DNA of 64,000 nt, taken from positions 1,499,045 to 1,563,044 of the forward strand of contig JAJEAN010000007.1 of assembly GCA_022822725.1 (NCBI GenBank), read 5' to 3'. The translations under genes and the position numbers were made by a program. Source of the stretch: Candidatus Latescibacterota bacterium. Its GTDB lineage: Bacteria > JAAXHH01. Each line of letters begins with the position of its first letter. Within the stretch, counting starts at the first letter, position 1. Under the pieces are notes generated by a model that was not told the DNA's origin, did no database searches, and saw only the letters and a program-made list of their open reading frames with translations. Positions 22,964 through 39,876 of the stretch are shown here, piece by piece.

Positions 22964-24505
22964 ATGGCTGACTCGAACTGGATTGCCATTCTCGATTTCG
23001 GCGCGCAATACACGCAGCTCATCGCGCGGCGCATACGGGAGAGCCACGTCTACTGCGAGGTGCTGCCCTACGATACGCCGGCATCCGAACTCTCGGCGCG
23101 CAACGTCACCGGCATCGTCCTTTCGGGCGGTCCGGCCAGCGTATACGGGGAAGACGCGCCTCATCCCGATCCGGCCATATTCGAGACGGGCAAGCCGATC
23201 CTGGGGATCTGCTACGGCCTGCAGCTGATGGGGCATTACCACGAAGGCGAGGTCGCCCACGCCGGTACCCGCGAATACGGCAATGCGGGGATCAAGACGA
23301 CGGGCGGCACGCCCCTGTTCCGCGATCTGCCCGAACGCATGACGGTCTGGATGAGTCACGGCGACGAGCTCAAGGCGCCGCCGCCGGATTTCGACGTCAT
23401 CGCCCGGTCCGACAACGGGCACATCGCCGCCGTCGGCCAGCCGGAACGCCGGATCTACGGCGTGCAGTTCCACCCGGAAGTGGTGCACACGGTCCATGGC
23501 CGCGAGATCCTCGGAAATTTCGTATTCGCCATTTGCGGCTGCGAGGGCAGCTGGACGCCGCGGACCTTCATCGACGAGGCCCTTGCCTCCATCCGGGAGA
23601 CCGTGGGCGAGCGCCGTGTGGCCTGCTTCGCCAGCGGCGGTGTGGATTCCTCGGTCGTGGCGGCGCTGATCGGGCGGGCCATCGGAGACCGCCTGACCTG
23701 CGTCTTCGTAGACACGGGTATGCTCCGGAAGGACGAGGCCAGACAGGTCGAGGAGACCTACCGCCGCACCATCAACGCCCGCTTCCGCTTCGTGGACGCC
23801 TCGGACCGGTTCCTCGACCGGTTGAAAGGCGTGGAAGAACCGGAACAGAAGCGCAAGATCATCGGCGACGAGTTCATTCGGGTGCTCGAAAGCGAACTGA
23901 CCTCGCTGCGCGGCGTGCACATCCTGGCCCAGGGCACGCTCTACCCCGACGTCATCGAAAGCGCTTCCGTGAAGGGGCCGGCCAGCGTCATCAAGACCCA
24001 CCACAACGTGGGCGGACTGCCGGACGACCTGGAACTGGAACTGCTGGAGCCGGTTCGCAACCTTTTCAAGGACGAGGTCCGCACTGTGGGCCGGGAGCTT
24101 GGCCTGCCGGACGAGATCATCGACCGGCATCCCTTCCCGGGACCGGGCCTGGGCATCCGCGTGCTGGGAGAAGTGACCCGGGAACGGGTGGCCATGCTGC
24201 AGGACGCGGACAAGATTTTCATCGACGAACTGCGCGCGGTGGGCCTGTACAACGAAGTCTCCCAGGCGCTGGCCGTGCTGCTTCCGGTCAAGACCGTCGG
24301 CGTCATGGGCGACGCCCGCACCTATGAGCGCGTCATCGCCCTCAGGGCGGTGACCACACTGGACTTCATGACGGCCGACTGGGCGCGCCTGCCCACCGAC
24401 TTCCTGGCCCACGTGTCGAACCGCATCATAAACGAAGTAAGGGGCGTGAACCGCGTAGTCTACGACCTCAGTTCCAAGCCGCCCGGCACCATTGAATGGG
24501 AATGA
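22964..24505 (+). CDS. guaA: GMP synthase (glutamine-hydrolysing)
   Basis: 513 residues, the normal length. The N-terminal class I glutamine amidotransferase has the nucleophile in ILGICYGLQLMG and the His-Glu pair in GVQFHPEVVH. The ATP-pyrophosphatase domain follows with the PP-loop FASGGVDSSVV (~residue 225). The C-terminal dimerisation domain ends in the canonical KPPGTIEWE. It converts XMP to GMP in the cytosol. It stands alone, with an intrinsic terminator 45 bases downstream. Confidence 0.97.
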   Translation: MADSNWIAILDFGAQYTQLIARRIRESHVYCEVLPYDTPASELSARNVTGIVLSGGPASVYGEDAPHPDPAIFETGKPILGICYGLQLMGHYHEGEVAHAGTREYGNAGIKTTGGTPLFRDLPERMTVWMSHGDELKAPPPDFDVIARSDNGHIAAVGQPERRIYGVQFHPEVVHTVHGREILGNFVFAICGCEGSWTPRTFIDEALASIRETVGERRVACFASGGVDSSVVAALIGRAIGDRLTCVFVDTGMLRKDEARQVEETYRRTINARFRFVDASDRFLDRLKGVEEPEQKRKIIGDEFIRVLESELTSLRGVHILAQGTLYPDVIESASVKGPASVIKTHHNVGGLPDDLELELLEPVRNLFKDEVRTVGRELGLPDEIIDRHPFPGPGLGIRVLGEVTRERVAMLQDADKIFIDELRAVGLYNEVSQALAVLLPVKTVGVMGDARTYERVIALRAVTTLDFMTADWARLPTDFLAHVSNRIINEVRGVNRVVYDLSSKPPGTIEWE

Positions 24506-24550: not shown

Positions 24551-24579
24551 AAACGCCCGCGTAAAAGCGGGCGTTTTTC
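24551..24579 (+). terminator. Intrinsic terminator of guaA
   Basis: ACGCCCGC, a six-base loop GTAAAA and GCGGGCGT form an eight-pair stem followed directly by a T run. It marks the left border of the zinc operon. Confidence 0.92.
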
Positions 24580-24681
24580 GTGTCAAGCCGACACTTGTTG
24601 GCACTTGACGGTACTTGTCGCCTTGCCGGCACGAACGTGTCTCCACGAGCAGCCTATTTGACGGAATATGTAATCTTGTGC

Positions 24682-24709
24682 TTGACAACGTATCTCGATA
24701 TGCTATACT
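24682..24709 (+). promoter_or_regulatory. Strong sigma70-type promoter of the zinc operon
   Basis: TTGACA, a 16-bp spacer and TATACT. Transcription would begin near 24716, immediately before the Zur-like palindrome. Confidence 0.75.
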
Positions 24710-24720
24710 GTGTCGGTTTC

Positions 24721-24738
24721 GTTATGTTATAACATTAC
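24721..24738. promoter_or_regulatory. Zur-like operator
   Basis: GTTATGTTATAACATTAC is an 18-bp near-perfect palindrome (one mismatched pair) that fits the known proteobacterial Zur box around ATGTTATAACAT. It sits right at the predicted transcription start, where a zinc-loaded Zur dimer would block RNA polymerase. A zur gene lies in the same operon, so the system is probably self-repressing under zinc sufficiency. Confidence 0.85.
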
Positions 24739-24827
24739 AATATTCATTCGACAATTACCCGTCTGGCACCTGTGAAAGCGTAAGCGATGACCTCGGCATT
24801 CAGTTCGTCGAAAAAAGTGGCAGTCCG

Positions 24828-25883
24828 ATGCATATGATGCGCCAGAGTTGCAACGTGGCAGTCTTTCTCGCATGGCTGTGTGCCGTCGCATGCACGGCGG
24901 ATCTACACGCGACAACGATGCTGCCGGGCGAGCCTCTCGACGCCGATCAGTCCCTGGGTGACCGTCACGCCGTCACCGTGCTGGCAGCTTCAATCTGGGA
25001 TCAAACCGCAACATGGGTTTGGACAAAGCAGCAGGAATACCTCCTGCAACTGTCGCAGGAGCTGGGATCTCTGCGTGGCCAGCATAGCGTCGGCTGGGCC
25101 CTGGTGCTGATGAGCTTTCTATATGGTGTCTTGCATGCTGCAGGACCTGGGCACGGGAAAGTCGTGTTGACGACCTACCTGTTGACCCACCGGAGCCGGC
25201 TGAATCGCGGTATCGCCATGGGCACCGCAGCAGCGTTTCTCCAGGGCATGACGGCCTTGTTGATGATTTACGCCCCGATTGGACTGGCTGGTTGGCTGCC
25301 GGTGGAGACAGATACGGCAACCCTGTGGGCTACGCGAGTCAGTTTCACCATGCTGGCGATCGTCGGAATCTACTTGCTGGTACGCGCTTCACGTGCCTTG
25401 TACGAGAGTATTCGCCAGTTCCGGCGCGAAACCGGCGAAGTCGGCCACGACCATGTCGGCCACGACCATGCCGGACACGGTCACGGGGACGGGGCAGGTT
25501 GCGGCTGCCGGCATATGCCCAGCGCAGCCGAGATCGATACAGCCGGAAGCCGGCATGCGGCGGCTGGCGTGGTTCTGGCCATCGGGATGCGCCCGTGCAG
25601 CGGAGCACTGTTTGTGCTGATTATCGCCGCCATGATGGGGTTGATCTGGCATGGCACGCTTTCCGTGATCGCCATGTCCACAGGTACCGCGATCACTGTC
25701 GTAATCCTGGCCATTGTTGCGACGAAGGCGCGAGACCTGGCGCGTAAGGTGGTCGCGCACCGGTCACCCTTGTGGGCACTCTTGGCCGCTGGCCTGGGCG
25801 CGCTTGGCGGCGCCATCCTGTTGCTTATGGCGCTGTGGGCGCTGAACACGTCGTTTATGTTGAATCAGATCGTGGATTTGTAA
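24828..25883 (+). CDS. NicO-family metal permease (nickel/cobalt-transporter-like)
   Basis: 351 residues from the ATG at 24828; in-frame ATGs at 24834 and 24837 are alternatives. An N-terminal signal-like segment is followed by six or so membrane helices. HAAGPGHGK (from H103) is the metal-site motif of the NicO/RcnA group, and a second motif GMRPCSGALF lies in the later half. A cytosolic loop (~205-222) is histidine-rich (VGHDHVGHDHAGHGHG), encoded by a 15-bp repeat, and ends in a cysteine pair, suitable for metal sensing or buffering. As first gene behind the Zur-like box it more likely handles zinc or a zinc substitute than nickel, but that is inference. The 322-bp gap before it carries only the terminator, promoter and operator listed. 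Confidence 0.85.
   Translation: MHMMRQSCNVAVFLAWLCAVACTADLHATTMLPGEPLDADQSLGDRHAVTVLAASIWDQTATWVWTKQQEYLLQLSQELGSLRGQHSVGWALVLMSFLYGVLHAAGPGHGKVVLTTYLLTHRSRLNRGIAMGTAAAFLQGMTALLMIYAPIGLAGWLPVETDTATLWATRVSFTMLAIVGIYLLVRASRALYESIRQFRRETGEVGHDHVGHDHAGHGHGDGAGCGCRHMPSAAEIDTAGSRHAAAGVVLAIGMRPCSGALFVLIIAAMMGLIWHGTLSVIAMSTGTAITVVILAIVATKARDLARKVVAHRSPLWALLAAGLGALGGAILLLMALWALNTSFMLNQIVDL
25440..25484. repeat. 15-bp tandem repeat, three copies, encoding the histidine loop
   Basis: GTCGGCCACGACCAT twice exactly, then a diverged third unit. Each unit adds two histidines to the permease loop. Confidence 0.9.
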
Positions 25884-25884
25884 C

Positions 25885-26007
25885 ATGACCCAAATATCAA
25901 AAAATCCTGGATTCTCTCCCCTTCGGGCCGGCATCGGAACGCGTCTCGCACTGGCGGGTGTCGCTGCCGGACTATTATGGTTTACCGTCCTCTGGGCCCT
26001 GCTATGA
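25885..26007 (+). CDS. Single-pass membrane microprotein of the zinc operon
   Basis: 40 residues between the permease and znuC, too short for usual gene calls. The ATG at 25885 is one base after the permease stop, and the TGA overlaps the znuC ATG (ATGA), so translation is coupled on both sides. A polar N-terminus with two basic residues is followed by a hydrophobic helix (LALAGVAAGLLWFTVLWALL) reaching the C-terminus. It could be a small accessory subunit of the ZnuBC transporter. Function unknown; conservation in other znu operons would confirm it. Confidence 0.7.
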   Translation: MTQISKNPGFSPLRAGIGTRLALAGVAAGLLWFTVLWALL

Positions 26008-26753
26008 GTACGACAATGGACAGTACGATCCTGCAATTCGTTAACCTGACCCTCGGTTATGACCGGCATCCGGCGGTCCATCATCTCGATTACGCCATTC
26101 GGGCCGGCGCCCTGGTCGCCGTGGTGGGACCGAACGGTGCCGGAAAGTCGACGCTGCTCAAGGGCACCGTCGGCAGCCTCACGCCGCTCGGCGGCGAGAT
26201 CAGGCTGACGGGGATTGAAGTCTCGGATATCGCATACCTTCCCCAGCAGTCCGAAATCGATCAGGGTTTTCCGATCTCGGTCTTCGACATGGTGGCCATG
26301 GGACTGTGGCGAAAGACCCGGGCTTTCCGCCGATTCGGACGGGAGGGCTACCGGAAGATCGGCGAGGCGCTGGATACCGTGGGACTGAGTGGTTTCGAGA
26401 AGCGTCCCATCGGCACCCTCTCCGGAGGGCAAATGCAACGTGCCCTGTTCGCCCGCCTGCTCCTCCAGGACGCGCGGCTGATTCTTCTGGACGAACCGTT
26501 CACGTCCATCGATTCGGCGACCGTGCGTGATCTCAAGGGGCTTATCCGTCGCTGGCACGAGGAGCGGCGGACGGTGGTCGCCGTCCTGCACGACCTGGAT
26601 CAGGTCCGGACGGAATTCCCGGAGACCCTTCTGCTGGCCCGTGAACAGATCGCGGCCGGACCGACGGAGCACGTCCTGTCTCCAGCGAATCTCGACCAGG
26701 CACGCCGGCTTACCGAGGCCTTTGACGAAGGAGCGGCCGTATGCGAGCGATGA
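26004..26753 (+). CDS. znuC: Zinc ABC transporter ATP-binding protein
   Basis: 249 residues from the ATG at 26004, which overlaps the microprotein stop; an upstream in-frame start at 25977 would overlap that gene and is rejected. Walker A GPNGAGKST begins at residue 42, the Q-loop is in YLPQQSEIDQGFPI, the signature is LSGGQMQRALFAR and Walker B is LILLDEPF. The DQGFPISVFDMVAMG segment is typical of the manganese/zinc/iron chelate ATPases. It powers ZnuB for zinc import. Confidence 0.95.
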   Translation: MSTTMDSTILQFVNLTLGYDRHPAVHHLDYAIRAGALVAVVGPNGAGKSTLLKGTVGSLTPLGGEIRLTGIEVSDIAYLPQQSEIDQGFPISVFDMVAMGLWRKTRAFRRFGREGYRKIGEALDTVGLSGFEKRPIGTLSGGQMQRALFARLLLQDARLILLDEPFTSIDSATVRDLKGLIRRWHEERRTVVAVLHDLDQVRTEFPETLLLAREQIAAGPTEHVLSPANLDQARRLTEAFDEGAAVCER

Positions 26754-26790
26754 ACGCCATGACTTCCTCCCTTCCGGTGGAGACTTCGTG

Positions 26791-27657
26791 ATGTACGATG
26801 CCATAATCGCTCCATTTGTCGAATTCAGTTTCATGCGCCGGGCCCTTGTCGGGTGCCTTGCCCTTTCACTGGGGGCGACGCCCATCGGGGTGTTCCTGAC
26901 CCTGCGGCGGATGAGTCTGACCGGGGACGCCATGGCTCATGCCATTCTACCCGGTGCGGCGCTCGGATACCTGGTGGCGGGGCTGTCCCTCGGCGCCATG
27001 ACACTCGGCGGGGTGATCGCCGGGGTGACGGTGGCATTGCTCTCCGGACTGGTAGCCCGGACCACCGTGGCCCGTGAGGATTCCAGCCTGGCCGCCTTCT
27101 ATCTGATATCCCTCGCCGTCGGGGTCGTGATCGTATCGACGCGCGGAAGCAATGTCGACCTGTTGCATATCCTGTTCGGCACGGTGCTCGCCTTGAACGA
27201 TGCGGCCATATTCCTGGTCGCGGGGATCGCCACGGTCACCCTGTTCGGACTCGCCTTCATCTACCGCCCCCTGGTGATGGAGTGCTTCGACCCGGGGTTT
27301 CTCCGCTCGGTCAGTTCCCTGAGTCCGGTGGCCCATTACAGCTTCCTCGTCCTGGCGGTCCTCAATCTGGTAGGCGGGTTTCATGCCCTGGGGACCCTGA
27401 TGGCGGTAGGGATCATGATCCTCCCCGCCGCCGCCGCGCGGTTCTGGACGCGCGACGTCACGCCCTTGTTGGCCATCGGTATGACGGCGGCCTTCCTGGG
27501 CGGATTCGTCGGCCTGCTGTTGTCCTATCACGCCAGTCTGCCTTCCGGTCCCGCCATCATCCTGACGGCCGGCGTGTTCTATCTTTTCTCGCTGACCTTC
27601 GGACCTGACGGCGTAATCATGACGCGCCTCAGGTCCCATCATCATCTTGAAGCATGA
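26791..27657 (+). CDS. znuB: Zinc ABC transporter permease
   Basis: 288 residues from the ATG at 26791, nine bases after GGAG; the longer upstream frame only overlaps znuC. Eight or so hydrophobic helices are visible. Family hallmarks are RRMSLTGDAMAHAILPGAALGYL, EDSSLAAFYLISLAVGVV, VDLLHILFGTVLAL and the later GTLMAVGIMILPAAAARFW. It forms the inner-membrane channel that receives zinc from ZnuA. The C-terminal RSHHHLEA tail is histidine-rich and may bind metal. Confidence 0.95.
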   Translation: MYDAIIAPFVEFSFMRRALVGCLALSLGATPIGVFLTLRRMSLTGDAMAHAILPGAALGYLVAGLSLGAMTLGGVIAGVTVALLSGLVARTTVAREDSSLAAFYLISLAVGVVIVSTRGSNVDLLHILFGTVLALNDAAIFLVAGIATVTLFGLAFIYRPLVMECFDPGFLRSVSSLSPVAHYSFLVLAVLNLVGGFHALGTLMAVGIMILPAAAARFWTRDVTPLLAIGMTAAFLGGFVGLLLSYHASLPSGPAIILTAGVFYLFSLTFGPDGVIMTRLRSHHHLEA

Positions 27658-27685
27658 TCCCAAGACCGAACAATAGAGCATCCCT

Positions 27686-28588
27686 ATGACATCAATACGT
27701 TCTATCCTTTCCTGCACATTCGCCGCTGTTTTGATCGCCGTGTCAGGGTCGGTAACTGCCCGGGCAAACGCCTCCATCGACGTTGTCGCCACCTTCAGCA
27801 TCCTCGGTGACATGGTCCGGCAGGTAGGCGGGGACCGGGTGCGCGTCACTACCCTCGTCGGTCCCGACAGCGACGCCCACGTCTATCGTCCAACCCCGGC
27901 AGACGCCCGGGCCGTCGCCGGGACCAGGCTGCTGGTCATCAACGGATTGGGTTTTGAGGGCTGGATAGAACGCCTGACGGAGGCATCCGGCTACAAAGGA
28001 CGCGTCGTGACGGCGACCGACGGCGTCGAGCCCCGCAGGATGACGGATGACGGGCAGGGCGAGATCGATCCCCATGCCTGGCAGAATCTGGCCAATGCCC
28101 GGATCTATGTCCGCAACATCGTCGATGGCCTGGCCGCGATCGATCCTGCGGGGGCCGATATCTATCACGGCAACGCGGCGCGTTACTTGGAGGAGATCGA
28201 CGTGGTCGAGGCACAGGTTCGCGAGGCGGTCGATTCGCTGCCGGTCGAACGGCGCAAGGTGGTCACGTCCCATGACGCCTTCGGCTATCTGTCGGCAGCC
28301 TACGGCATCGAGTTCCATGCTCCAGTCGGTTTCAGCACCGAAGCGGAGGCGTCCGCGGGTGACGTCGCCAGGCTGATCCGTCAGATCAACAGGGATAAGA
28401 TCCCGGCCGTCTTCCTCGACAACATCTCCGACCGCCGCCTGCTCGACCAGATCGTCCGGGAAACCGGAGCGCGGATCGGCGGCACGCTCTATTCCGACGC
28501 GCTGTCGAAGGAGGACGGACCGGCTGGCAGCCATCTTGGCATGATACTGCACAATATTCGAACACTGGTCGCCGCATTAGGCGATTGA
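27686..28588 (+). CDS. znuA: Zinc ABC transporter periplasmic binding protein
   Basis: 300 residues with a signal peptide of about 28 (ends SVTARANA). The cluster A-I zinc ligands are in place: H65 in DSDAHVY, H130 in DPHAWQN, H196 in SHDAFGY and an acidic residue near 250 in FLDNISD. Unlike E. coli ZnuA, no His/Asp-rich loop follows the first ligand. It captures zinc in the periplasm and hands it to ZnuB. The stop-to-zur gap of 126 bases has no second clear Zur site. Confidence 0.95.
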   Translation: MTSIRSILSCTFAAVLIAVSGSVTARANASIDVVATFSILGDMVRQVGGDRVRVTTLVGPDSDAHVYRPTPADARAVAGTRLLVINGLGFEGWIERLTEASGYKGRVVTATDGVEPRRMTDDGQGEIDPHAWQNLANARIYVRNIVDGLAAIDPAGADIYHGNAARYLEEIDVVEAQVREAVDSLPVERRKVVTSHDAFGYLSAAYGIEFHAPVGFSTEAEASAGDVARLIRQINRDKIPAVFLDNISDRRLLDQIVRETGARIGGTLYSDALSKEDGPAGSHLGMILHNIRTLVAALGD

Positions 28589-28714
28589 TCGGGATCGGAG
28601 ACCGAGAGCCTGTGTATTGTCTGCAACGTTGACGCAGTCCGTGATCGCCGCAGTGCGCAACTGGCCGCCGTGCACAACGGGCCGCCACAATAGGTGCGTG
28701 ACAAGGAGAGACCC

Positions 28715-29176
28715 ATGAATAACGAAGCGGTTTCCCATGTACTCGAACGAGCCGAAGTACTGTGCCGTGAGCGCGGCGCGCGGCTGACCGAACAACGCAA
28801 GGCCGCGCTTCAACTGCTGTGTCTATCCGAAAAACCGCTCAGTGCCTACGAGCTATTGGAGCGCATGCGTGGCGTAGTCAGGAATCCCGCACCGCCGACG
28901 GTCTACAGGGCATTGCATTTCCTGCTCGAGCATGGCCTGGTGCACAAGCTCGAAAGCCTGAACGCGTATGTGGGTTGCGCGCATCCGGATCATCCTCACG
29001 TCTGCCAGTTCCTGATCTGCGATGACTGCGGCGAGGTGGCCGAGGTTGAAGACCCCAGTGTGGCCAGGAGCCTGAAGGCGGCAGGCAACGAGATTGGGTT
29101 CCGTACCAGGCGGCCGGTCATCGAACTGCTGGGAACCTGTGCGCAGTGCAGTTCGGAGAAAAACGGTAGATCCTGA
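28715..29176 (+). CDS. zur: Zinc uptake regulator (Fur family)
   Basis: 153 residues from the ATG at 28715, eight bases after AAGGAG; a GTG seven codons earlier lies before that site and is rejected. The winged helix contains LTEQRKAALQLL and PPTVYRALHFLLEHGLVHKLES. The metal part has HPDHPHVCQFLICDDCGE and a C-terminal CAQC, giving the two CxxC pairs of the structural zinc site and the histidines of the sensor site. With zinc it should bind the palindrome at 24721 and shut the operon. Confidence 0.93.
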   Translation: MNNEAVSHVLERAEVLCRERGARLTEQRKAALQLLCLSEKPLSAYELLERMRGVVRNPAPPTVYRALHFLLEHGLVHKLESLNAYVGCAHPDHPHVCQFLICDDCGEVAEVEDPSVARSLKAAGNEIGFRTRRPVIELLGTCAQCSSEKNGRS

Positions 29177-29213
29177 TACGAATCCAGTTCACCCTTAGCG
29201 AAAAGGAATTGAA

Positions 29214-30449
29214 GTGCCCCTGACAGAGAGACTTCCCGTTACTGTCCTGTCCGGCTTTCTCGGCGCAGGCAAGACCACGCTGCTCAACAACATACTGAAT
29301 AACCGCGCGGGCAAGCGCGTCGCGGTCATCGTCAATGACATGAGTGAGGTCAACATCGATGCGGCGCTCGTTGAACGCGGCGGTGCGGAACTCTCGCGGA
29401 CTGAAGAGAAGCTGGTCGAGATGTCGAACGGCTGCATTTGCTGCACGTTGCGAGACGATCTGCTCGCCGAGGTTTCGCGGCTCGCGCAGGAGAGACGTTT
29501 CGACTACCTGCTCATCGAGTCCACCGGGATCTCTGAACCCATCCCCGTCGCACAGACCTTCACCTTCGAGGACGAGAACGGGGTGAGCCTGAGCCAGCTT
29601 TCCCGGCTCGACACGATGGTCACGGTCGTGGACGCGGCGAGCTTCCTGCGGGACTACGACGCCGGCGATGCGATCCAGGACCGCGGTGAGTCGCTGGGCG
29701 AAGACGACCACCGGACGGTGACCGACCTGCTCATCGACCAGATCGAGTTCGCCGACGTCATCGTGCTCAACAAGCTCGATCTCGTGAGCACCGACCAGGC
29801 GCTCGAGGTCTCGGCCATCGTGAAAGCACTCAACCCCGGCGCGAAGATCCTAATGGCGTCGCACGGAGAGGTCCCGATCGAAAGCGTGCTCGACACGGGC
29901 CTGTTCGATTACGAGAAGGCCGAACGCTCCGCCGGCTGGATCCGGGAGCTCCAGGGCGAGCACACGCCGGAGACCGAGGAGTACGGCATCTCCAGCTTCA
30001 CCTATCGGACGTCGCAGCCTTTCGACGCCGAGAAGCTTTGGGCGTTCCTGCACGACGACCAGAACTGGAACGGCGTGCTGCGTTCGAAGGGTTTCTTCTG
30101 GGTCGCCGCCGACCATCGGGTCGCCTACGAGTGGGCGCAAGCCGGAGGCGTCAGCAGCGTGAACTCCGCCGGGATGTGGTGGGCGGCCGTGCCTCGCGAA
30201 CACTGGGGTCACCCCGAAGGCCAGCGGCCCGATCAGCAGCCGGGTTGGGATCCTCGTTTCGGCGACCGCGTGCAGCAACTCGTTTTCATCGGCCAGCAGA
30301 TGCCAGAGGAGGCCATGCGCGCTCGCCTCGACGCGTGCCTGCTCGACAGGCGCCTCACCGACGCCGGCAGCAAGGCCTGGGCAGCGCTCGAGAACCCGTT
30401 TCCGGAGCTTGTCCTGGAGGAGGAGCCAGCAGAGGAGGAGCCAGCATGA
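29214..30449 (+). CDS. COG0523 GTPase, putative zinc metallochaperone (first copy)
   Basis: 411 residues from a GTG at 29214 behind AAAAGGA. G-loop GFLGAGKTT (~13-21), the COG0523 metal motif GCICC (73-77), ESTG, the base-recognition NKLD motif and the CobW C-terminal domain ([14 protein letters not shown] onward) are all present. Zur-regulated members (ZigA, ZagA, YciC) deliver zinc to client enzymes during starvation, which fits this operon. The C-terminus is acidic ([10 protein letters not shown]). The second copy downstream has a different architecture, so the two probably serve different clients. Confidence 0.92.
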
Positions 30450-30581
30450 CAGAAACAGCTTCAGTTCAAGCTTCACAAACCCTTGGACGCCGTTGATGCC
30501 GATGACCTGACCCGGGTCTGCACGGCGTGGGGTTTCGACGTCCGGATGGCCGCCTTCGAACCGCTCACACGGGAGAAATAA
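30450..30581 (+). pseudogene. Remnant of a small gene between the two COG0523 genes
   Basis: An ATG at 30446 overlaps the preceding stop (ATGA) and would start a coupled gene, but it hits TGA after 16 codons. The frame reached by a one-base shift stays open for 43 codons to a TAA at 30579-30581 and reads like protein (FKLHKPLDAVDADDL, then CTAWGFDVRMAAFEPL). I take this as a frameshifted short gene. No family recognised. Confidence 0.4.
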
Positions 30582-30600
30582 CCGCTCACACGGGAGAAAT
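30559..30600. repeat. 21-bp exact tandem duplication carrying the ribosome site of the second COG0523 gene
   Basis: AACCGCTCACACGGGAGAAAT occurs twice. The first copy spans the end of the remnant frame; the second supplies GGGAG before the ATG at 30603, so two ribosome sites are present in series. Confidence 0.92.
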
Positions 30601-30602
30601 AG

Positions 30603-31949
30603 ATGAATACGCAACAAAAAGTACCAGTTTCCATCCTAACCGGCTTCCTGGGGTCTGGCAAAACGACCCTGCTCAACCGGATCCTGACCGAGGAGCACGG
30701 CAAACGCATCGCCGTGATCGAGAACGAATACGGAGAGGTCGGCATCGATCAGGCCCTCGTCATCGACGCGGACGAAGAGATCTTCGAGATGTCGAACGGC
30801 TGTATCTGCTGTACGGTGCGCGGAGACCTGATTCGCGTGCTCGGCAATCTCATGAAGCGCCGCGACAAGTTCGACTATGTGCTGGTGGAGACCACGGGGC
30901 TCGCCGATCCCGGCCCGGTCGCCCAGACCTTCTTCATGGACGACGAGATTCGCGCGGAGTTCTCGCTTGACGGGATCGTCACGCTCGTCGACGCGGCCCA
31001 CATCGAGCAACAGCTCGGCCGAAGCGACGAAAGCACCGAGCAAATCGCCTTCGCGGACGTCCTGGTGCTCAACAAGACGGACCTCGTCGACGACGAGGCA
31101 CTCGACCGGCTCGAAACCCGGCTCCGGGAAATGAACCGTATGGCGAAAGTCGTGCGCAGCAAACAGGCAGACGTCCCGGTCGACACGGTAATGAACCTCG
31201 AGGCCTTCGACCTGGACCAGGTGCTCGAGGTTCGTCCCACGTTCCTCGAGCCGGAATACCCCTTCGAATGGACCGGCGTGTATACGCTCGATGCCGGCCG
31301 CTACGAACTCAGTCTCGCCGAAGGGCCTGATCCCGCGATGTCGCTCGTCGTCGTGTCCGACCAGGGCACCGATGATGCTGAACTTCGTGAAGGCGCGGAG
31401 TGGTGCGTGCGGCGGTACGCCGAACCCGCGGAAGACGTCAGTCCGGGGGATGATATTCCTGCCGGAAAACACGTGAACCTCAAGCTCGATATTCCAGGGG
31501 ACAAATCGTTCTTCCTGGAGGTCGACACGCCGCAGCGGGTTGGCCTCTTCGCCCAGCACACGGCAGAAGAGTTCGATCTCCAACTGAAGAACGCAATTGG
31601 CGAGACCATCGGGCATGAGGCCGAGCGCACCTGGGTCGCACAGCACGAGCACGACGACGAAGTGGGCTCGATCGCAATCGAGCGGGACGGCGACGTCGAT
31701 CCCGAGCGGCTCAACGCGTGGCTTGGCAAACTGCTCATGGAACGCGGGGTGGACATCTTCCGTATGAAGGGCTTCATCAGCCTCGCGGGCGAGTCGCGCC
31801 GCTTCGTCTTCCAGGGCGTTCACATGCTCTTCGACGGCCAGCCGGATCGCCCATGGGGGGACGAGCCCCGCCGCAATCAGCTCGTCTTCATCGGCCGCAA
31901 CCTGGATGAGCAGGACATGAGGCTGGGGTTCGACGCATGTCTGGTTTGA
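30603..31949 (+). CDS. COG0523 GTPase with a beta-rich insert (second copy)
   Basis: 448 residues. G-loop GFLGSGKTT, metal motif GCICC (66-70), ETTG and NKTD are intact. Instead of going straight into the CobW C-terminal domain, ~105 extra residues (about 219-323, starting FEWTGVYTLDAGRYEL) are inserted; they look beta-rich and acidic. A His/Glu cluster follows (HEAERTWVAQHEHDDE, ~338-353) that could hold zinc. The C-terminal domain resumes near 385 (FRMKGFISLAG). A metallochaperone role is inferred from family and operon. The last 13 bases overlap the WD40 gene start. Confidence 0.9.
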   Translation: MNTQQKVPVSILTGFLGSGKTTLLNRILTEEHGKRIAVIENEYGEVGIDQALVIDADEEIFEMSNGCICCTVRGDLIRVLGNLMKRRDKFDYVLVETTGLADPGPVAQTFFMDDEIRAEFSLDGIVTLVDAAHIEQQLGRSDESTEQIAFADVLVLNKTDLVDDEALDRLETRLREMNRMAKVVRSKQADVPVDTVMNLEAFDLDQVLEVRPTFLEPEYPFEWTGVYTLDAGRYELSLAEGPDPAMSLVVVSDQGTDDAELREGAEWCVRRYAEPAEDVSPGDDIPAGKHVNLKLDIPGDKSFFLEVDTPQRVGLFAQHTAEEFDLQLKNAIGETIGHEAERTWVAQHEHDDEVGSIAIERDGDVDPERLNAWLGKLLMERGVDIFRMKGFISLAGESRRFVFQGVHMLFDGQPDRPWGDEPRRNQLVFIGRNLDEQDMRLGFDACLV

Positions 31950-32983
31950 ATGCCGGCAGTACGCGGGGCGTAATTCGCCAGGGGTGGTCCGCGACGGTCG
32001 GCGACTATGCCATCGCCGGGGGCTGGAGCCTGGGCGGCGAGGCCCTGATGGTCGGTGACGCCGAGGGGAGCGTCTACGCATTCGCCGGCAAGTCCGGTGC
32101 GACTGCGTGGGCGCGTCGCGAGATCCATGAAGGCGGTCTGCTCGCCATGGCGGTCCACCCGGGCGGATCCACGTTCGCTACGGCCGGCCAGGACAGCCGG
32201 GTCTTGATCTGGAATGCCACCGATGGCCAGGTAAGCCGGACGATCGACGTAGGAAGCGCCTGGGTAGAAAACGTGGCGTGGTCGCCGGATGGCCGATGGC
32301 TGGCGCTCTCCTGCTCCAGGCAGGTTCACGTATATGGTGCGGACGGCGCGGAGGCCTGGCGATCCGAGGATCATCCCAGCACCGTCAGCGCGATCGCCTG
32401 GTCGAACGCGGAGGAGCTGGCGACGGCCTGTTACGGTCGGGTATCGTTCTTCGAAGCGTCCACTGGCAAGCTTCAGCAGAAGCTGGAGTGGCAGGGATCC
32501 CTGGTGTCGATGGTACTGAGCCCGGACGGGGGCATCGTGGTCTGCGGCAGCCAGGACAATTCGGTGCACTTCTGGCGTCGCGACACGGGGAATGACTCCA
32601 TGATGTCCGGATATCCGGCCAAGCCGTCGGCCCTGGCCTTCGATTCGACCGGCACGCTTCTGGCCACCGGCGGCGGGGAGGCGGTGACGGTCTGGAGCTT
32701 CCTGGGCAGGGGTCCCGAAGGTACGCGCCCCGGCGTACTGGAGTATCATGTCCAACCCGTCACGAAGCTTTCCTTCGCGCCCGGCGCGATGCGCCTGGCA
32801 TCGGGGGGCCGTGACGGGGCCGTGGTTGCGTGGTCGCTTAACAGAGACGGCGAAGGCAGTCGGATTGGGAATGGATTTCTGGCGGATGTGGTTGCCGGGT
32901 TATACTGGCGGCCGGACGGCCGGGCCCTGGCCGCGCTCGACGCGCAGGGCGGCGTGACGGTTTGGAGAGTGGGCAACAATTGA
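31937..32983 (+). CDS. WD40-repeat protein of the zinc operon
   Basis: 348 residues, cytosolic (no signal). Seven or so WD-type blades can be followed, for example LAMAVHPGGSTFATAGQDSR then VLIWNATDG, VENVAWSPDGRWLAL, GSLVSMVLSPDGGIVV then SVHFWRRDTG, and VTKLSFAPGAMRLASGG then VVAWSLN. Such propellers are protein docking platforms. Its start lies inside the second COG0523 gene and its TGA overlaps the next start, so it is made together with them. A scaffold for the GTPase or its clients is a reasonable guess, nothing more. Confidence 0.88.
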   Translation: MSGLNAGSTRGVIRQGWSATVGDYAIAGGWSLGGEALMVGDAEGSVYAFAGKSGATAWARREIHEGGLLAMAVHPGGSTFATAGQDSRVLIWNATDGQVSRTIDVGSAWVENVAWSPDGRWLALSCSRQVHVYGADGAEAWRSEDHPSTVSAIAWSNAEELATACYGRVSFFEASTGKLQQKLEWQGSLVSMVLSPDGGIVVCGSQDNSVHFWRRDTGNDSMMSGYPAKPSALAFDSTGTLLATGGGEAVTVWSFLGRGPEGTRPGVLEYHVQPVTKLSFAPGAMRLASGGRDGAVVAWSLNRDGEGSRIGNGFLADVVAGLYWRPDGRALAALDAQGGVTVWRVGNN

Positions 32984-34524
32984 GGCACGCCACAAACGTC
33001 CGCCGGTGGCTCCACCTCACCCGCCGCTGGCTCTATCTCTCCCACCGCTGGCTGGGGATCTTCATGTGCCTGCTCGTGGCCATGTGGTTTTTCTCCGGCG
33101 TGGTGATGATGTATGTCGGTTTTCCGTCATTAACGCGGGCGGAACGCCTCGCTGCGCTGCCGGAACTCGAACAGGACAGGCTTCGGGTTGAACCCGCTGA
33201 ACTGTTGCGGCGCCTCGATCCGGCGCAGACCATAGAGGAATTGCGGCTTACCTCCGTGCTTGGACGGCCCGCCTGGCTTGTGCGTACCGGCGATGACACG
33301 CGCCATGGCCTGTTCGCCGACACCGGCGGTATGATCGGCGGGATCGACGCGGAAGACGCCCTTCACGCGAGCCGGGTTTATGCCCACGCTACCGGCCTCT
33401 CGTCGACGCAACCGGTTCACAAGGCGCTCCTGTTCATGGACCAGTGGTCCGTGTCCAGCGGCCTCCATCCCCATCGGCCCCTGCACGCAGTGGCGCTGAA
33501 CGATCCGGCGGGCACTGAACTGTATGTCTCTTCGGTAACCGGGGAAGTGGTGCGGGATACCAGCGCGCTTGAACGCGGCTGGAACTGGCTGGGGGCGAAC
33601 CTGCACTGGATATATCCGATGCAGCTGCGCCGCCACAGCTCGGTCTGGCACTGGGTCGTCGTGGTGCTCTCAATTGCCGGCCTGGTATCCATTGTCACCG
33701 GCGCGGTGATCGGTGTTGTGCGTTTGAGGTTTCGCAGGCGCTATCGCGGCAAAGACGTGACCCCTTATCGGGGAACAATGCAGCTGCACCATATCCTGGG
33801 GCTGATTTTCCTGGTACCGCTGACGACCTATCTGTTCAGCGGCCTCCTGTCGATGAATCCCTGGGGGGTGTTTGACGATGAAGTCCCTTTCAGCGCGCGA
33901 CTCGCCGCGTACAAAGGCGCTCCCACCGTCCGCGACAACCTGACTGATGAAGCTCTATCCTCACCGGCCCGCAACCTGGATCTCCCGCCTGACACGCGCG
34001 AACTGGTGTGGCAATGGATCGGTGGATCAAACTATGCCTATGCCGTCACCGGCGACGGCCAGCGTCAAATGCTTACTTCATTGAAGCAGGACTGCCTGGA
34101 GGAATCCGCCCTCGCACAAATACAACAGGTCATGGAAAGCCACAGGACCGTCTCAATCGAGAAACTTTCTGATTACGACCTCTACTATTACTCCCACCAC
34201 AAGCGCTGGCGAGCGTTACCCATATTGCGGGTGCGCTTCGATGATGCCAACGCAACCTGGTACCACATCGACCTCACCACCGGCGAGCTGATAAACCAGC
34301 TCACTGAGACGGGACGGGCGCGCCGCTGGCTGTACAACGGCCTTCACAGCCTGGACTTCCGTTTCCTCATCGACAATCGCCCCGCCTGGGACCTGGCGGT
34401 GATCGGGCTGTGCAGCGCCGGATTCCTGTTCTCTACAACGGCGGTTGTCGTCTCCTGGCGACGCCTGCTTCGCATCCGCAAACGTCAACGCACGCAACAA
34501 GCGCGACAAGCGCGACAATCATGA
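32980..34524 (+). CDS. PepSY-associated transmembrane protein
   Basis: 514 residues from a TTG at 32980 whose last two bases form the preceding TGA; GGAGAG lies upstream. Four membrane helices are clear: near residues 20-45 (GIFMCLLVAMWFFSGVVMMY), ~225-250, ~270-295 and ~470-495. The first helix is preceded by RRWLYLSHRWLG and the third by LHHILGLIFLV, the pattern of PepSY_TM proteins. Two large periplasmic loops carry PepSY-like stretches. Relatives include iron-siderophore reductases and peptidase regulators. In this operon it may act on an extracellular zinc chelate, which is inference. Confidence 0.85.
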   Translation: MRHATNVRRWLHLTRRWLYLSHRWLGIFMCLLVAMWFFSGVVMMYVGFPSLTRAERLAALPELEQDRLRVEPAELLRRLDPAQTIEELRLTSVLGRPAWLVRTGDDTRHGLFADTGGMIGGIDAEDALHASRVYAHATGLSSTQPVHKALLFMDQWSVSSGLHPHRPLHAVALNDPAGTELYVSSVTGEVVRDTSALERGWNWLGANLHWIYPMQLRRHSSVWHWVVVVLSIAGLVSIVTGAVIGVVRLRFRRRYRGKDVTPYRGTMQLHHILGLIFLVPLTTYLFSGLLSMNPWGVFDDEVPFSARLAAYKGAPTVRDNLTDEALSSPARNLDLPPDTRELVWQWIGGSNYAYAVTGDGQRQMLTSLKQDCLEESALAQIQQVMESHRTVSIEKLSDYDLYYYSHHKRWRALPILRVRFDDANATWYHIDLTTGELINQLTETGRARRWLYNGLHSLDFRFLIDNRPAWDLAVIGLCSAGFLFSTTAVVVSWRRLLRIRKRQRTQQARQARQS

Positions 34525-34961
34525 ATGCTCAAACGCAACGCATCCTCGAAAAGCTGGACAGACACGAAGCGCTGGTCACGGGCCGGGGCCAGGTGCTTGG
34601 GCAGATCGTGTTCTGCGAAGGCTGTTGCTGCGGCCAGACCGGCAAGGGGTTCCCGTCATTGCCCCGCGACTGGCTCAAGCAGCAGTGGAAGGAAGAAAAA
34701 CTCAACCGGTCGGTGCAGCTGACGATCTCCGGGTGCCTTGGCCCCTGCGATCTGGCCAATGTCTTCTGTGTCATCTCGTCAGAAGGTCTGCAGTGGTTTG
34801 GCGGCCTCCATGAACAGTGGCAATACGACTTGCTCCTGGACTGGGCCCTGGCCTCCCGCGACGCGGGTGTATTATTCGAATTGCCTGCCGAACTGAATCA
34901 CCACCGGTTTGAACGGTTCGCTGTTCCCCTCCCCTGTGAGAATGGAGTTGACCCGGTTTAG
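34521..34961 (+). CDS. Thioredoxin-like [2Fe-2S] ferredoxin-type protein
   Basis: 146 residues; the ATG at 34521 overlaps the PepSY stop (ATGA). Cysteines are arranged FCEGCCCGQTGKG (Cys32, 35, 36, 37) and ISGCLGPCDLANVFC (Cys72, 76, 83), matching the thioredoxin-like ferredoxin pattern of C-x(n)-C ... C-x3-C that binds a [2Fe-2S] cluster. Similar proteins lie next to cobalamin/CobW-type genes. It is the last gene of the zinc operon and may feed electrons to the PepSY membrane protein. Role unproven. Confidence 0.8.
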   Translation: MNAQTQRILEKLDRHEALVTGRGQVLGQIVFCEGCCCGQTGKGFPSLPRDWLKQQWKEEKLNRSVQLTISGCLGPCDLANVFCVISSEGLQWFGGLHEQWQYDLLLDWALASRDAGVLFELPAELNHHRFERFAVPLPCENGVDPV

Positions 34962-35001: not shown

Positions 35002-35091
35002 ATGTCCAAATGCCATGGTACCTGTCCCGCGGCCTTCCGCCGGCAGGTGGTCGACCTCGTTCGTTCCGGCCGTTCACAAGTAAGCCGTTGA
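35002..35091 (+). pseudogene. IS3-type transposase OrfA remnant
   Basis: An ATG behind AAGGAG starts 29 codons that include FRRQVVDLVRSGRSQVS, the start of the helix-turn-helix of IS3-family OrfA proteins, then stops. An inverted repeat (TGGACATGT at 34964 and ACATGTCCA at 35000) brackets its leader and may be part of the element end. Only this scrap is left. It sits exactly at the right end of the zinc operon. Confidence 0.65.
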
Positions 35092-35139
35092 TATCAAATC
35101 GTCAAAATTGCTCGTTTACAATCGGGTGGGAATGATCCC

Positions 35140-37407: not shown

Positions 37408-38259
37408 ATGCACACCACGCTGATCGACGTTCAGACATTGCACCAGCATATACAGGATCCGAACTGGAGCGTGATCGACGCCCGGTTCTCCCTGGCCGAC
37501 GCGGGGCAGGGCGCCAGGGAATACGCGGAAGGCCACGTGCCCGGTGCCGTGTACGCCCACCTGGACGACGACCTCTCCGGACCTATCATTCCAGGAGAAA
37601 CGGGCCGGCATCCGCTGCCATCGGTGGACCGGGCCGCGGAGGTATTCTCGCGAATGGGGATCGACGAAAACGTACAAGTCGTTGTCTACGACGGTGCGGG
37701 CGGTTCGGTAGCCGCCAGGGTGTGGTGGATGCTCCGCTGGCTGGGTCATGATGCCGTCGCCGTGGTGGATGGCGGCTGGCCGGCCTGGACCGGCGCGGGC
37801 CTGCCGGTTACGCGGGACGTACCGGAGGCGAGTCCGCGGACGTTCAAGGCCAATGTCCAGGCGCATATGGTCACCGACGTGGAGGGCGTTGACAGGTACC
37901 GGAAGAATGTGGACTGGGCCGTCCTGGATGCCCGCACACAGGAACGATTCCGCGGCGAACAGGAACCCATTGATCCTATCGCCGGCCACATTCCTGGGGC
38001 ACGGTGTGCGACCTTCGATGCGAATCTGGGGGAGGACGGGTGCTTCCTGCCACCGGAGGAACTGAGACGGAGATTCGAAGGGTTATTCGGCGACGTGCCG
38101 GCCGACCGCGCCGTAAACTACTGTGGTTCAGGGGTCTCGGCCTGCCACAACCTGCTCGCCATCGCCCACGCGGGACTGGGCGACGCCGTGCTCTACCCTG
38201 GGTCCTGGAGCGAGTGGATTACCGATGAGGAACGGCCGGTTGGGGTGGGGGAGGAGTGA
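37408..38259 (+). CDS. Sulfurtransferase with two rhodanese domains (thiosulfate or 3-mercaptopyruvate type)
   Basis: 283 residues from the ATG at 37408. Two rhodanese modules are visible: the inactive N-terminal one (VIDARF...GHVPGAVYAHLDDDLSG, then VVVYDG) and the catalytic one (VLDARTQERFRGE, GHIPGA, then NYCGSGVSACHN with the active cysteine around residue 237). The CGSGVSA loop is closer to mercaptopyruvate sulfurtransferases than to classical rhodanese. It moves sulfane sulfur to cyanide or thiol acceptors. No signal peptide. Confidence 0.92.
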   Translation: MHTTLIDVQTLHQHIQDPNWSVIDARFSLADAGQGAREYAEGHVPGAVYAHLDDDLSGPIIPGETGRHPLPSVDRAAEVFSRMGIDENVQVVVYDGAGGSVAARVWWMLRWLGHDAVAVVDGGWPAWTGAGLPVTRDVPEASPRTFKANVQAHMVTDVEGVDRYRKNVDWAVLDARTQERFRGEQEPIDPIAGHIPGARCATFDANLGEDGCFLPPEELRRRFEGLFGDVPADRAVNYCGSGVSACHNLLAIAHAGLGDAVLYPGSWSEWITDEERPVGVGEE

Positions 38260-38609
38260 GATCGCGGACATTCGACTTGGCATGTAGGTAGGCACATTTC
38301 TATCTCACCGGGCAGCATGGTGAATCGATTCATCTAGCTAAACTCCAGACTGTGTTTCTATTGAAAACAAATTGTCGGATTGCCGACGATTCCTCCTAGT
38401 CTGGCCCAATTTTAGGTGGCAAGAATATGGAATCATACTTAGTCACATTGAAATGAGGCGGTAGTTTGAAGTTAGATGAGTTAACAGACCGGAAATGCCA
38501 TGGGGAGTAGGGGATCGTAACAAAGACCGTCAGGAGCGATAAACCTGCTACTATTTCTGACCAATCTCTTCAGATTTTCCTTCGTTCATAGCGCTCTCAG
38601 ATGGAATGG
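38260..38609. other. 350-bp AT-richer gap, no feature recognised
   Basis: Lies between the converging sulfurtransferase and the unknown three-gene cassette. No reading frame with coding character, tRNA, clear hairpin or repeat was seen. Its composition matches the cassette more than the sulfurtransferase, so the border of acquired DNA may be near 38260. Confidence 0.5.
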
Positions 38610-39014
38610 CTATCGGTCTTTGGAAACAAACTCAGTAAGAGTAGCGAGGCTTTTTGCGTGTTGTTCAGTCTCGAACTCAGAAAGACCTTCTGGTAGGACT
38701 ATGTTGCCATGAAATGGGTTGCAGCGTGTAGGGGACCTTTCTACTGACCTACCCTGCCGACAAACATCGTCAACCTGCAGTACCCTCCACCCATAGAACC
38801 TTCGTACATCGGTATTCTTGTTTGTATGATACGTCACCAGAAAATCAAAGTCATCGAGATTACTGGGATCGAATAGATCAACCGATAGTTTGTGCTCCCC
38901 CTTCGGCGGTAAGAATGGCTTGATTTGCTGGTTCCGATGTTTCCGAGAATAGATTCCTCTGCCAATTCTGATGTACAGTTTCTGAGAATTTGAAATGGAA
39001 ACTACCGAGGGCAA
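38610..39014 (-). CDS. Unknown protein, third gene of an AT-rich cassette
   Basis: 134 residues from a TTG at 39014, chosen because GGAGGT stands five bases upstream. No family named. Coding character is good in the middle and end: FLPPKGEHKLSVDLFDP, a FYGWRVLQVDDV segment and a SPTRCNPFHGNIVLPEG segment followed by an alanine-rich helix (AKSLATLTEF). Its first 137 bases overlap the preceding gene in another frame, which is long for bacteria; either translation is coupled there or the two were one gene before a frameshift. No signal or membrane segments. Confidence 0.55.
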   Translation of the reverse strand: MPSVVSISNSQKLYIRIGRGIYSRKHRNQQIKPFLPPKGEHKLSVDLFDPSNLDDFDFLVTYHTNKNTDVRRFYGWRVLQVDDVCRQGRSVERSPTRCNPFHGNIVLPEGLSEFETEQHAKSLATLTEFVSKDR

Positions 39015-39447
39015 GATGTACCTCCATTACTCTTGTCAGAGAACTTACCTCTTTACTTGAAGAAAACTCCCTTAACCACTCCATATCTGAAAGCAACATC
39101 GAACGGTATCTTTTCCGTTTGACCTCGTGAACCGAAATAGTCCTATCTGGCTTGCAGATGAACGATACAGAATGCCCTTTTTTTATATCAAAATTGATAG
39201 CGACCTTCCCCTCATCAAGAAGTTCCGCGCCTATCGAAAGGCCGGGAGAGAGATATTGTTCCACCACAGTCTTAGCATCGGACAATACCTCTTCCGATGG
39301 AGGAGTCAAACCTTCGGCAATCTCCTCATCGAAATCGAACAGGACCTCATCATTTGTATGAGCAAGAGTCTCAAACCCCGTCCAGGTGTGATTAACAATA
39401 AATACCTGAGTGGTTTCAGTAGGAGCAGGAGACGTTTCATTTGTCAT
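38878..39447 (-). CDS. Unknown protein, second gene of the cassette
   Basis: 189 residues. ATG at 39447 lies 11 bases inside the end of the preceding gene, with a GGGGG purine run upstream. Acidic N-terminal half (VLFDFDEEIAEGL, then PPSEEVLSDAKTVVEQYL), central strands VAINFDIKKGHSVSFICK and a basic VHEVKRKRYR segment. No known motif, no cysteine pair, no membrane helix. The last ~45 residues run in the region shared with the third gene and look less protein-like than the alternative frame. Confidence 0.55.
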   Translation of the reverse strand: MTNETSPAPTETTQVFIVNHTWTGFETLAHTNDEVLFDFDEEIAEGLTPPSEEVLSDAKTVVEQYLSPGLSIGAELLDEGKVAINFDIKKGHSVSFICKPDRTISVHEVKRKRYRSMLLSDMEWLREFSSSKEVSSLTRVMEVHLALGSFHFKFSETVHQNWQRNLFSETSEPANQAILTAEGGAQTIG

Positions 39448-39799
39448 TTTCCGTACCCCCTTCGAGTTGACCTATCTTTTCCCCGAGCCATTTATGCAAC
39501 GATTTTGCCGAACTCGGACTCAACACTAGTTCTACCTCGAACTCCCGATGTATTTGGCCGTGCATCTTCCTTTCGATTTCTTCTCCAACCCTGAACCCAT
39601 CCTTATCGGGGGACTCCAAGGCCTTGTGCACAATTTCGGTCGGATACGCGGTGCGCTCAGAATATGGACAAATAACGAGATTCCCGGTATGTGACGCCCC
39701 TCCGAAACACCCATCAACATGGATAACCCGATAGTGTTTGGATCGCTCAATTTGCACCACCACTTTATCAGGCAATGGGCTTGAATCACCATTGGACAT
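39437..39799 (-). CDS. Unknown protein, first gene of the cassette (weak DUF3467-like pattern)
   Basis: 120 residues from the ATG at 39799, seven bases after GGAG; upstream in-frame ATGs lack such a site. HYRVIHVDGCFGGASHTGNL followed by PYSERTAYP and, near the end, EVELVLSPSSAKSLHKWLGEKI resembles the DUF3467 layout (a strand pair with a surface glycine turn, then a helix that ends in a leucine-tryptophan motif). That likeness is from memory and weak. Expressed with the two genes that follow it on the minus strand. Confidence 0.6.
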   Translation of the reverse strand: MSNGDSSPLPDKVVVQIERSKHYRVIHVDGCFGGASHTGNLVICPYSERTAYPTEIVHKALESPDKDGFRVGEEIERKMHGQIHREFEVELVLSPSSAKSLHKWLGEKIGQLEGGTENDK

Positions 39800-39841
39800 G
39801 ACCTGACTCCTCATTAGTTGAGTGGAGATTCTGTAAGACAC

Positions 39842-39876
39842 AAAAACCCCGTAGCGGATAAGCTACGAGGCTTTTG
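39842..39876 (-). terminator. Hairpin with T run ahead of the cassette
   Basis: CCCCGTAGC and GCTACGAGG flank a short loop (one mismatch); on the minus strand the stem is followed by TTTTTG. It would stop transcripts arriving from the right, insulating the cassette, though it also has CTTTTG on the plus side. The remaining bases to 40108 show nothing else. Confidence 0.6.

Follow-up and report, generated by a model that had tools for sequence, protein, structure and literature searches.

The window, a stretch of 64,000 nucleotides (nt) on contig JAJEAN010000007.1 of a Candidatus Latescibacterota bacterium, contains a long run of co-directional genes behind guaA. Quite probably, this run is a zinc-starvation operon that is autoregulated by the repressor Zur, forms a single block adjoining the 3' end of guaA, and is built on a two-gene core, cobW2-WD40, that has been transferred between phyla. 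The genes of the window were compared across 16 genomes of the phylum, 12 of which, its own included, belong to the same genus. In addition, an alignment of seven WD40 sequences was scanned against 84,980 species, each represented by one genome. This yielded 515 stretches, 464 of them relatives, and all figures given below for 80 loci concern the best 80 of these 464. The 80 loci all bear metagenome-assembled genome (MAG) titles in their records; members on both strands were counted, the thresholds for zur and znu being loose. Record titles are an unreliable guide to lineage: L084, titled Gemmatimonadetes, falls with Latescibacterota by GuaA, and L077, under the same title, is a same-genus locus (genome G003).

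The operon and its insertion at guaA

The features of the locus are as follows.

24489..24505 (+): guaA 3' end, left direct-repeat copy (att-like), CCATTGAATGGGAATGA; recurs at the right border
24682..24709 (+): predicted sigma-70-type promoter, TTGACA-16-TATACT, scoring 11 of 12
24721..24738: predicted Zur palindrome GTTATGTTATAACATTAC, just downstream of the -10 element, palindromic at 16 of 18 positions
24828..25883 (+): nicO, NicO-family permease with a His-rich loop (PF03824, 4e-29)
25885..26007 (+): microprotein of 40 amino acids (aa) with a hydrophobic stretch; 65-93% identity in same-genus loci, also in L107
26004..26753 (+): znuC/aztA-like zinc ABC ATPase (best NCBIfam family AztA, 219.9 of 220 bits)
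26791..27657 (+): znuB/aztB-like permease (AztB, 257 of 280 bits)
27686..28588 (+): znuA/aztC-like periplasmic binding protein (PF01297, 4e-81; AztC, 296 of 350 bits)
28715..29176 (+): zur repressor (PRK11639, 5e-38, 130 of 167 bits)
29214..30449 (+): zigA, COG0523 zinc metallochaperone GTPase (NF038288, 627.6 bits, above the cutoff of 600)
30446..30602 (+): remnant of small101, a conserved 101-aa gene intact in five relatives
30603..31949 (+): cobW2, second COG0523 GTPase, with an inserted domain at about 215-346 (PF02492/PF07683)
31937..32983 (+): WD40 beta-propeller protein (Pfam WD40), overlapping cobW2 by 13 nt
32980..34524 (+): PepSY_TM membrane protein, TTG start (PF03929, 6e-12)
34521..34961 (+): Fe-S, [2Fe-2S] ferredoxin-like protein related to part of CobN (tblastn up to 3e-17)
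35002..35091 (+): short open reading frame (ORF), transposase-start-like by eye; a similar stretch is found at all eight right borders compared
35119..35135 (+): right direct-repeat copy (att-like), 15/17 match, the next best in the region being 12/17; cleaner in relatives

A preliminary description of this DNA had seen here a twelve-gene operon. All the genes that it named are present, on one strand and in the order given, but the twelve positions hold eleven intact genes and one remnant. Its family names for nicO, znuCBA, zur, both COG0523 genes, WD40 and PepSY are backed by matches, Pfam giving NicO, ABC transporter, ABC-3, ZnuA, FUR, cobW with CobW_C twice, WD40 and PepSY_TM over the operon. 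The start of nicO is most likely at 24828, which corrects the earlier reading. The overlaps that had been read between neighbours are confirmed: ATGA between the microprotein and znuC (26004-26007), 13 nt between cobW2 and WD40 (31937-31949), TTGA between WD40 and PepSY (32980-32983) and ATGA between PepSY and Fe-S (34521-34524). The same holds for the broken gene between the GTPases: five relatives have the intact 101-aa gene, of which the window lacks the N-terminal part and keeps the C-terminal part. This small101 gene occurs in 20 of the 80 loci, one of them same-genus, and identity to the reference copy is 66-87% for 15 copies. Neither Pfam nor NCBIfam gave a match for it, and the AlphaFold model of the protein has a pLDDT of 52.

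ZigA is here accompanied by a second COG0523 GTPase of a different build, the product of cobW2. Its AlphaFold model is poor (mean pLDDT 62.6), and Foldseek with this model ranks YjiA first at low TM-scores. The C-terminal domain is the only one with a clear match, again to YjiA (Z 11.7, 97 residues, root-mean-square deviation 2.3); the inserted domain gives middling beta-sandwich matches, with a best Z of 5.9.

The operon is present or absent as one unit. WD40 was found in 9 of the 12 same-genus genomes, and in the same-genus G005, G006 and G008 the site is empty: 4 nt separate the guaA stop from the start of a 743-aa gene, which in the window forms the right flank of the operon. The inserted unit extends past the Fe-S gene to about 35135, that is, to the right copy of the border repeat. 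The seven left copies compared read GAATGGGA, and an exact GAGTGGGA core stands at four of eight right borders (G007, G009, G010, G011). In the published descriptions of islands that integrate into the 3' end of guaA (ICERspD18B, PMC7775301; GIsul2, PMC9376610), the border repeat is ACAATNGAGTGGGAATNNTT and its core GAGTGGGA; the right border of the window agrees with this repeat at 15 of 17 specified positions. The unit thus resembles these islands in its place of insertion and in its border repeat, and differs from them, as they are described there, in that no integrase or transfer gene was found and in that its cargo is a zinc operon.

It is likely that the unit entered as a guaA-type island, by way of an integrase of which it has since been stripped. 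Some points weigh against this history. The window has lost the exact core at its right border, which is one base off there as it is in G002, G003 and G004, and no integrase was found among the ten main insert proteins scanned, short ORFs lying outside the scan. Moreover, guaA was detected among the 80 loci only at the same-genus locus, and therefore guaA islands give no general account of how the core has spread. GC content marks the insert only weakly. Further to the right, beyond the rhodanese gene, GC content drops from about 64% to 45-50% (window 38000-39999).

Predicted zinc control, the metal served and the accessory genes

The promoter and the Zur palindrome, both proposed in the preliminary description, hold up well. 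A promoter scan gives five sites of at least 9/12, against 2.6 +/- 1.6 in shuffles; apart from the promoter itself, all of them have a score of 9. In the 3.80 Mb of this genome, the 12-bp operator core is found a single time, the control with the reversed pattern giving 0, and another Zur-type pattern has no match in the genome. With up to two mismatches, there are 19 genome sites versus 14 for the reversed pattern. As this is no clear excess, the predicted operator may be the only strong site of its kind in the genome. Three loci among the 18 imperfect sites (L002, L006, L015) were read by eye, and no zinc gene was recognised in them. In the eight same-genus upstream regions, window included, the operator core is conserved at 11-12 of 12 positions and TTGAC of the -35 element throughout; the -10 sequence TATACT is exact in the window and G007 only, the other regions being shorter there.

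Zur-like boxes are also found at relatives of the locus. With at most one mismatch to the core, 16 sites occur in 12 of the 80 loci (1.19 Mb), and one block shuffle gave 0. The box lies between divergent zur and cobW2 or zigA genes in L106, L108, L110, L147, L150 and L151, in front of transporter genes in L105, L106 and L107, and away from the cobW2-WD40 core in L141 and L145. The 12 box-bearing loci are titled alpha- or gammaproteobacterial or SAR324, or correspond to L077. None was seen in loci of Chloroflexota or Acidobacteriota, and the Fur-family matches there have an identity of only about 30%. It had been proposed that absence of the WD40, PepSY and Fe-S genes from other Zur-controlled operons would speak against a common unit. 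For WD40 this absence is not found, as six other-lineage loci have such boxes; PepSY and Fe-S are optional.

Very probably, the gene run is a Zur-controlled zinc-starvation operon, as judged from its sequence. Among solved chains, those closest to its repressor are 7DH7 (9e-34) and the zinc uptake regulator 4MTD (7e-30). Against this stand the family models: all three ABC genes miss the equivalog cutoffs of AztABC, although this is their best family, and the repressor falls below the equivalog cutoff of the zinc repressor model. In the mechanism that we propose, zinc-loaded Zur would bind the predicted operator downstream of the -10 element and shut the single promoter, its own gene included. 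At low zinc, the operon would be expressed: uptake would be served by the AztABC-like importer and the NicO permease, and the two COG0523 GTPases would pass metal to client enzymes. For the WD40 protein, the most likely role would be that of a partner or client scaffold of the second GTPase, because its gene is adjacent to cobW2 and overlaps it by a fixed length; on balance, we favour a partner of CobW2. The PepSY protein and the ferredoxin-like protein could form an accessory membrane redox pair, which elsewhere is linked to TonB-dependent metallophore receptors and here would work without one.

Several known systems are reminiscent of this arrangement. In the account of COG0523 subfamily 5 by Haas et al. 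2009 (PMC2770081), WD40 and znuABC genes accompany the GTPase genes, several of which follow predicted Zur sites, and the neighbourhood studied here likewise combines a COG0523 GTPase gene, WD40 and znuABC neighbours and a predicted Zur site. That account, as cited here, makes no mention of PepSY, Fe-S, the 101-aa gene or a transfer across phyla. The subfamily whose genes stand beside WD40 genes in prokaryotes also includes most of the eukaryotic COG0523 homologues, among them the human one (Haas et al. 2009, PMC2770081). The ABC subunits are closest to AztA, AztB and AztC of the AztABCD system of Paracoccus denitrificans, which is also under Zur control and for whose AztD protein CobW neighbours are reported (PMC6689063). 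AztD is described in that work as a periplasmic propeller (PMC6689063), whereas the WD40 protein has, by eye, no N-terminal hydrophobic stretch or signal peptide, and its gene overlaps that of a GTPase; an identification as AztD was therefore set aside. The first GTPase, being above its NCBIfam equivalog cutoff, is comparable to the zinc metallochaperone ZigA.

It could also be imagined that the operon serves cobalt or nickel, or cobalt in replacement of zinc, as much as zinc itself. The presence of nicO would fit, as would the company of the same core elsewhere (CbiM in 8 of the 80 loci, HupE in 2, DUF1636 in 9) and the resemblance of the Fe-S protein to part of CobN. However, zur, an AztABC-like transporter and zigA stand together in this operon behind a Zur box, and we consider a shared service of this kind rather unlikely.

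The PepSY and Fe-S genes are optional accessories. Downstream counts refer to the 56 loci outside the genus that have 5 kb downstream. Close downstream and on the same strand, PepSY is found in 7 of them, Fe-S in 6 (one at 29%) and a TonB receptor in 8, and either PepSY or Fe-S follows cobW2-WD40 in 12. Plasmid relatives of PepSY gave 16 hits; in all four annotated loci viewed they come directly after TonB-dependent receptors, and a fifth locus viewed (H14) is without annotation. In 8 of the 80 loci, WD40 is followed on its own strand by both PepSY and a TonB receptor; one of these receptors was scanned and passed the siderophore-receptor cutoff. For this receptor, no match at 1e-10 was found in the own genome, and one weak match in the 12 same-genus genomes. 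This position after TonB receptors suggests metallophore handling rather than a zinc-specific job, so that PepSY may be a metallophore-handling redox protein retained without its receptor. No match in the PDB was found for it. The PepSY open frame is of about 605 aa in G003, G009 and G010 (L028, L029, L030), compared with 514 aa for the product of the window, the extra sequence lying near residue 317.

For the Fe-S protein, no Pfam match was obtained even at E 5. It is 30-38% identical to seven plasmid records, six of which are annotated CobN at the place of the match; in one annotated case viewed, the match is the N-terminus of CobN, beside genes for CbtA and CbtB. Its four PDB matches are all weak and comprise three hydrogenase or ferredoxin chains and one antibody fragment. 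It is conceivable that PepSY and the ferredoxin-like protein together work as a redox accessory, and we put this forward tentatively. The two genes could instead be hitchhikers that belong to iron acquisition: besides the plasmid loci with their receptors, a Caulobacter PepSY gene beside a TonB receptor (CC2927-CC2928) is listed in the Fur regulon (PMC4176598), and G002 is without PepSY. This is unlikely in view of the four-base overlaps that join WD40, PepSY and Fe-S and of the 12 of 56 loci in which one or the other follows the core, even if one of these Fe-S matches is weak. The preliminary description had taken all members as a larger uptake-and-delivery system; of this, the zinc operon stands, and WD40, with its partner in 79 of 80 loci, is no chance member, but PepSY and Fe-S are not fixed parts.

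Spread and transfer of the cobW2-WD40 core

A search for the same gene order in other genomes had been suggested as a check, and it bears out the central part of the operon. cobW2 lies upstream of WD40 on the same strand in 79 of the 80 loci, directly so in 72 and with exactly the overlap of the window in 60. A gene for an FAD oxidoreductase intervenes in the remaining 7 of the 79. In L080, the 80th locus, no cobW2 was seen, the contig ending 1.15 kb upstream; where the sequence extends 1,700 nt or more upstream, the pair is found in 60 of 60 loci. The pair is therefore the core of the operon. Within the genus, the whole order is constant wherever contigs are readable, with the exception of G002, which lacks PepSY. 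FAD oxidoreductase genes stand just before WD40 in L076, L078, L079, L080, L081, L095, L100 and L120, mostly titled Binatia, and in seven of these after cobW2.

Besides the CbiM, HupE and DUF1636 genes mentioned above, the 80 loci contain zigA (13), the FAD oxidoreductase (8), znuA-like (22) and zur-like genes (21) and nicO (2). L107 (Chromatiales) has nicO through WD40 in common with the window, without zigA, at 60-90% identity. Behind this cluster, at L107:12416-17200, lies a second zinc-type cluster with another zur (79%). G007 contains, besides its 97% copy, a WD40 fragment of 77% identity (L034, G007:C7), which is a second copy or contamination.

The titles of the 80 loci cover about a dozen phylum-level names, with WD40 identities of 69-82%: Binatia, Latescibacterota, Gemmatimonadota, Chloroflexota, Acidobacteria, Alpha-, Gamma- and Deltaproteobacteria, Spirochaetaceae, Planctomycetota, SAR324, Myxococcota, Bipolaricaulota and others. 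In even-draw background scans, which scored up to five candidates per genome and thus give minimal counts, WD40 was found at 1e-60 in at least 1 of 398 Pseudomonadota genomes, namely the centre itself, and in at least 16 of 400 Chloroflexota genomes, with identities of at least 72% in 15 and of 37% in one. No plasmid match of WD40 was found at 1e-40.

GuaA was used as a control in 53 genomes: 49 other-lineage genomes and that of L077, which together stand for 50 of the 80 loci, and G000, G013 and G015. In 46 of the 49 other-lineage genomes, GuaA is full-length and 43-60% identical to that of the window; in one genome it is divided between two contigs (50 and 65%), and no match at 1e-60 was obtained in G026 or G038. 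In the same 49 genomes, cobW2 is 81-89% and WD40 69-82% identical. Within the genus, the identities of G016 are 97% for GuaA, 89% for cobW2 and 80% for WD40; in G013, of the same family, they are 75, 56 and 41%, with cobW2 and WD40 on different contigs. Thus, the core evolves faster than GuaA within the genus and is nevertheless far more alike between phyla. At the DNA level, L128 (Chloroflexi) and L113 (Acidobacteriota, Thermoanaerobaculia) are 96.5% identical over 2,433 nt. This match spans cobW2-WD40 and is the only one between their 13.5 and 21 kb of sequence; over the same stretch, L128 and L111 are 92.8% identical. The reversal of identities, together with this match of core DNA only, indicates horizontal transfer, and we regard transfer of the core between phyla as almost certain.

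Two points weigh against this conclusion: GuaA is the sole housekeeping control gene, and the trees separate it little from the core. Of 52 genomes, 48 entered these trees, which were made by a quick method with long branches flagged by the program; G024, G026 and G038, lacking a single GuaA locus, and G022, with a short cobW2 piece, were left out. Lineage labels change 15 times on the GuaA tree, 16 times on that of WD40 and 19 times on that of cobW2, compared with about 32 when shuffled. With label clustering so nearly equal, topology by itself reveals few transfers; transfer is argued chiefly from the reversal of identities and from the DNA matches confined to the core. Inheritance after transfer looks mostly vertical. 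The exceptions with starred support are the Chloroflexi genome G051 (that of L128), within Acidobacteriota, and the alphaproteobacterial G035 and G036, with the gammaproteobacterial G040. The latter grouping may be a binning error, as near-identical short contigs of one sample series are involved; for L128, the flanks differ.

Contaminated metagenome bins would be a more general source of cross-phylum similarity, and the MAG titles of all 80 loci leave room for them. In one sample series, L105 and L106, both titled Alphaproteobacteria, have contigs of only 6-7 kb that agree at 99.8% over 6.3 kb, and L110, a third bin of the series, shares 97% of the core with L105. However, most copies differ from one another and have different gene neighbours. 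The module is present in records titled chromosome of 4.2-6.3 Mb (OX638322, OY282457, OX638377, OX638345, OX638375) and, here, on a 2.5-Mb contig, and the contigs of L128 and L113, which match in the core alone, measure 90 and 206 kb. Contamination is thus a very improbable explanation. An ordinary vertical Zur operon with merely very slow-evolving cobW2 and WD40 would agree with the constant gene order in the genus and with the clustering of labels, but is hardly tenable, since the identity reversal already contradicts it, three same-genus species lack the unit, and two phyla share the core alone.

The link of COG0523, WD40, znuABC and Zur was already published in 2009; the cross-phylum spread of the core and the guaA island setting are new, in that neither was found in searches of the literature on COG0523, Zur and sponge zinc. 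The operon is a case of a metal-starvation module that moves between phyla without separation of its core pair. The WD40 partner of the COG0523 GTPases, so far unexplained, thereby becomes a target for direct experiments.

Sponge hosts and the WD40 genes of symbionts

Four of the loci (L076, L094, L114, L133) are tabulated by Slaby et al. 2017 (PMC5649159) as bins from Aplysina aerophoba. A further 19 bear the codes RHO, COS, CAR, IRC or APA, which, to judge from the initials, fit hosts of Robbins et al. 2021 (PMC8163846). It is likely that more than four of the 80 loci are sponge symbionts. For further MAG-set sample codes and two Candidatus names, a literature search gave no proof of sponge origin. 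SB06xx, OX638xxx and similar sets are presumably from sponge or symbiosis projects.

It is possible, if somewhat doubtful, that one circulating zinc-starvation cassette is common to sponge-associated bacteria of about ten phyla. The near-fixed cobW2-WD40 core, often with small101, DUF1636 or ZigA, would then be coupled in different lineages to different importers (AztABC-like, ZnuABC-like, CbiM/ECF, HupE or NicO), because zinc would be a shared limiting resource in the sponge. Two facts weigh against such a link: sponge origin is verified for 4 of the 80 loci, and WD40 repeats are reported by Robbins et al. 2021 (PMC8163846) as neither enriched in sponge MAGs nor among the detected transfers. 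L153 (bacterium TMED88) is planktonic by its name and, with only the best 80 of 464 relatives viewed, the module is not proved to be sponge-specific.

In the study of Robbins et al. 2021 (PMC8163846), WD40 is counted among the eukaryote-like repeats. If the cassette exists, some WD40 genes counted as eukaryote-like symbiosis factors would instead encode zinc-delivery scaffolds, which offers a testable alternative reading for these genes in sponge symbionts. A transferred WD40 gene in this setting would be new with respect to the results cited from that study.

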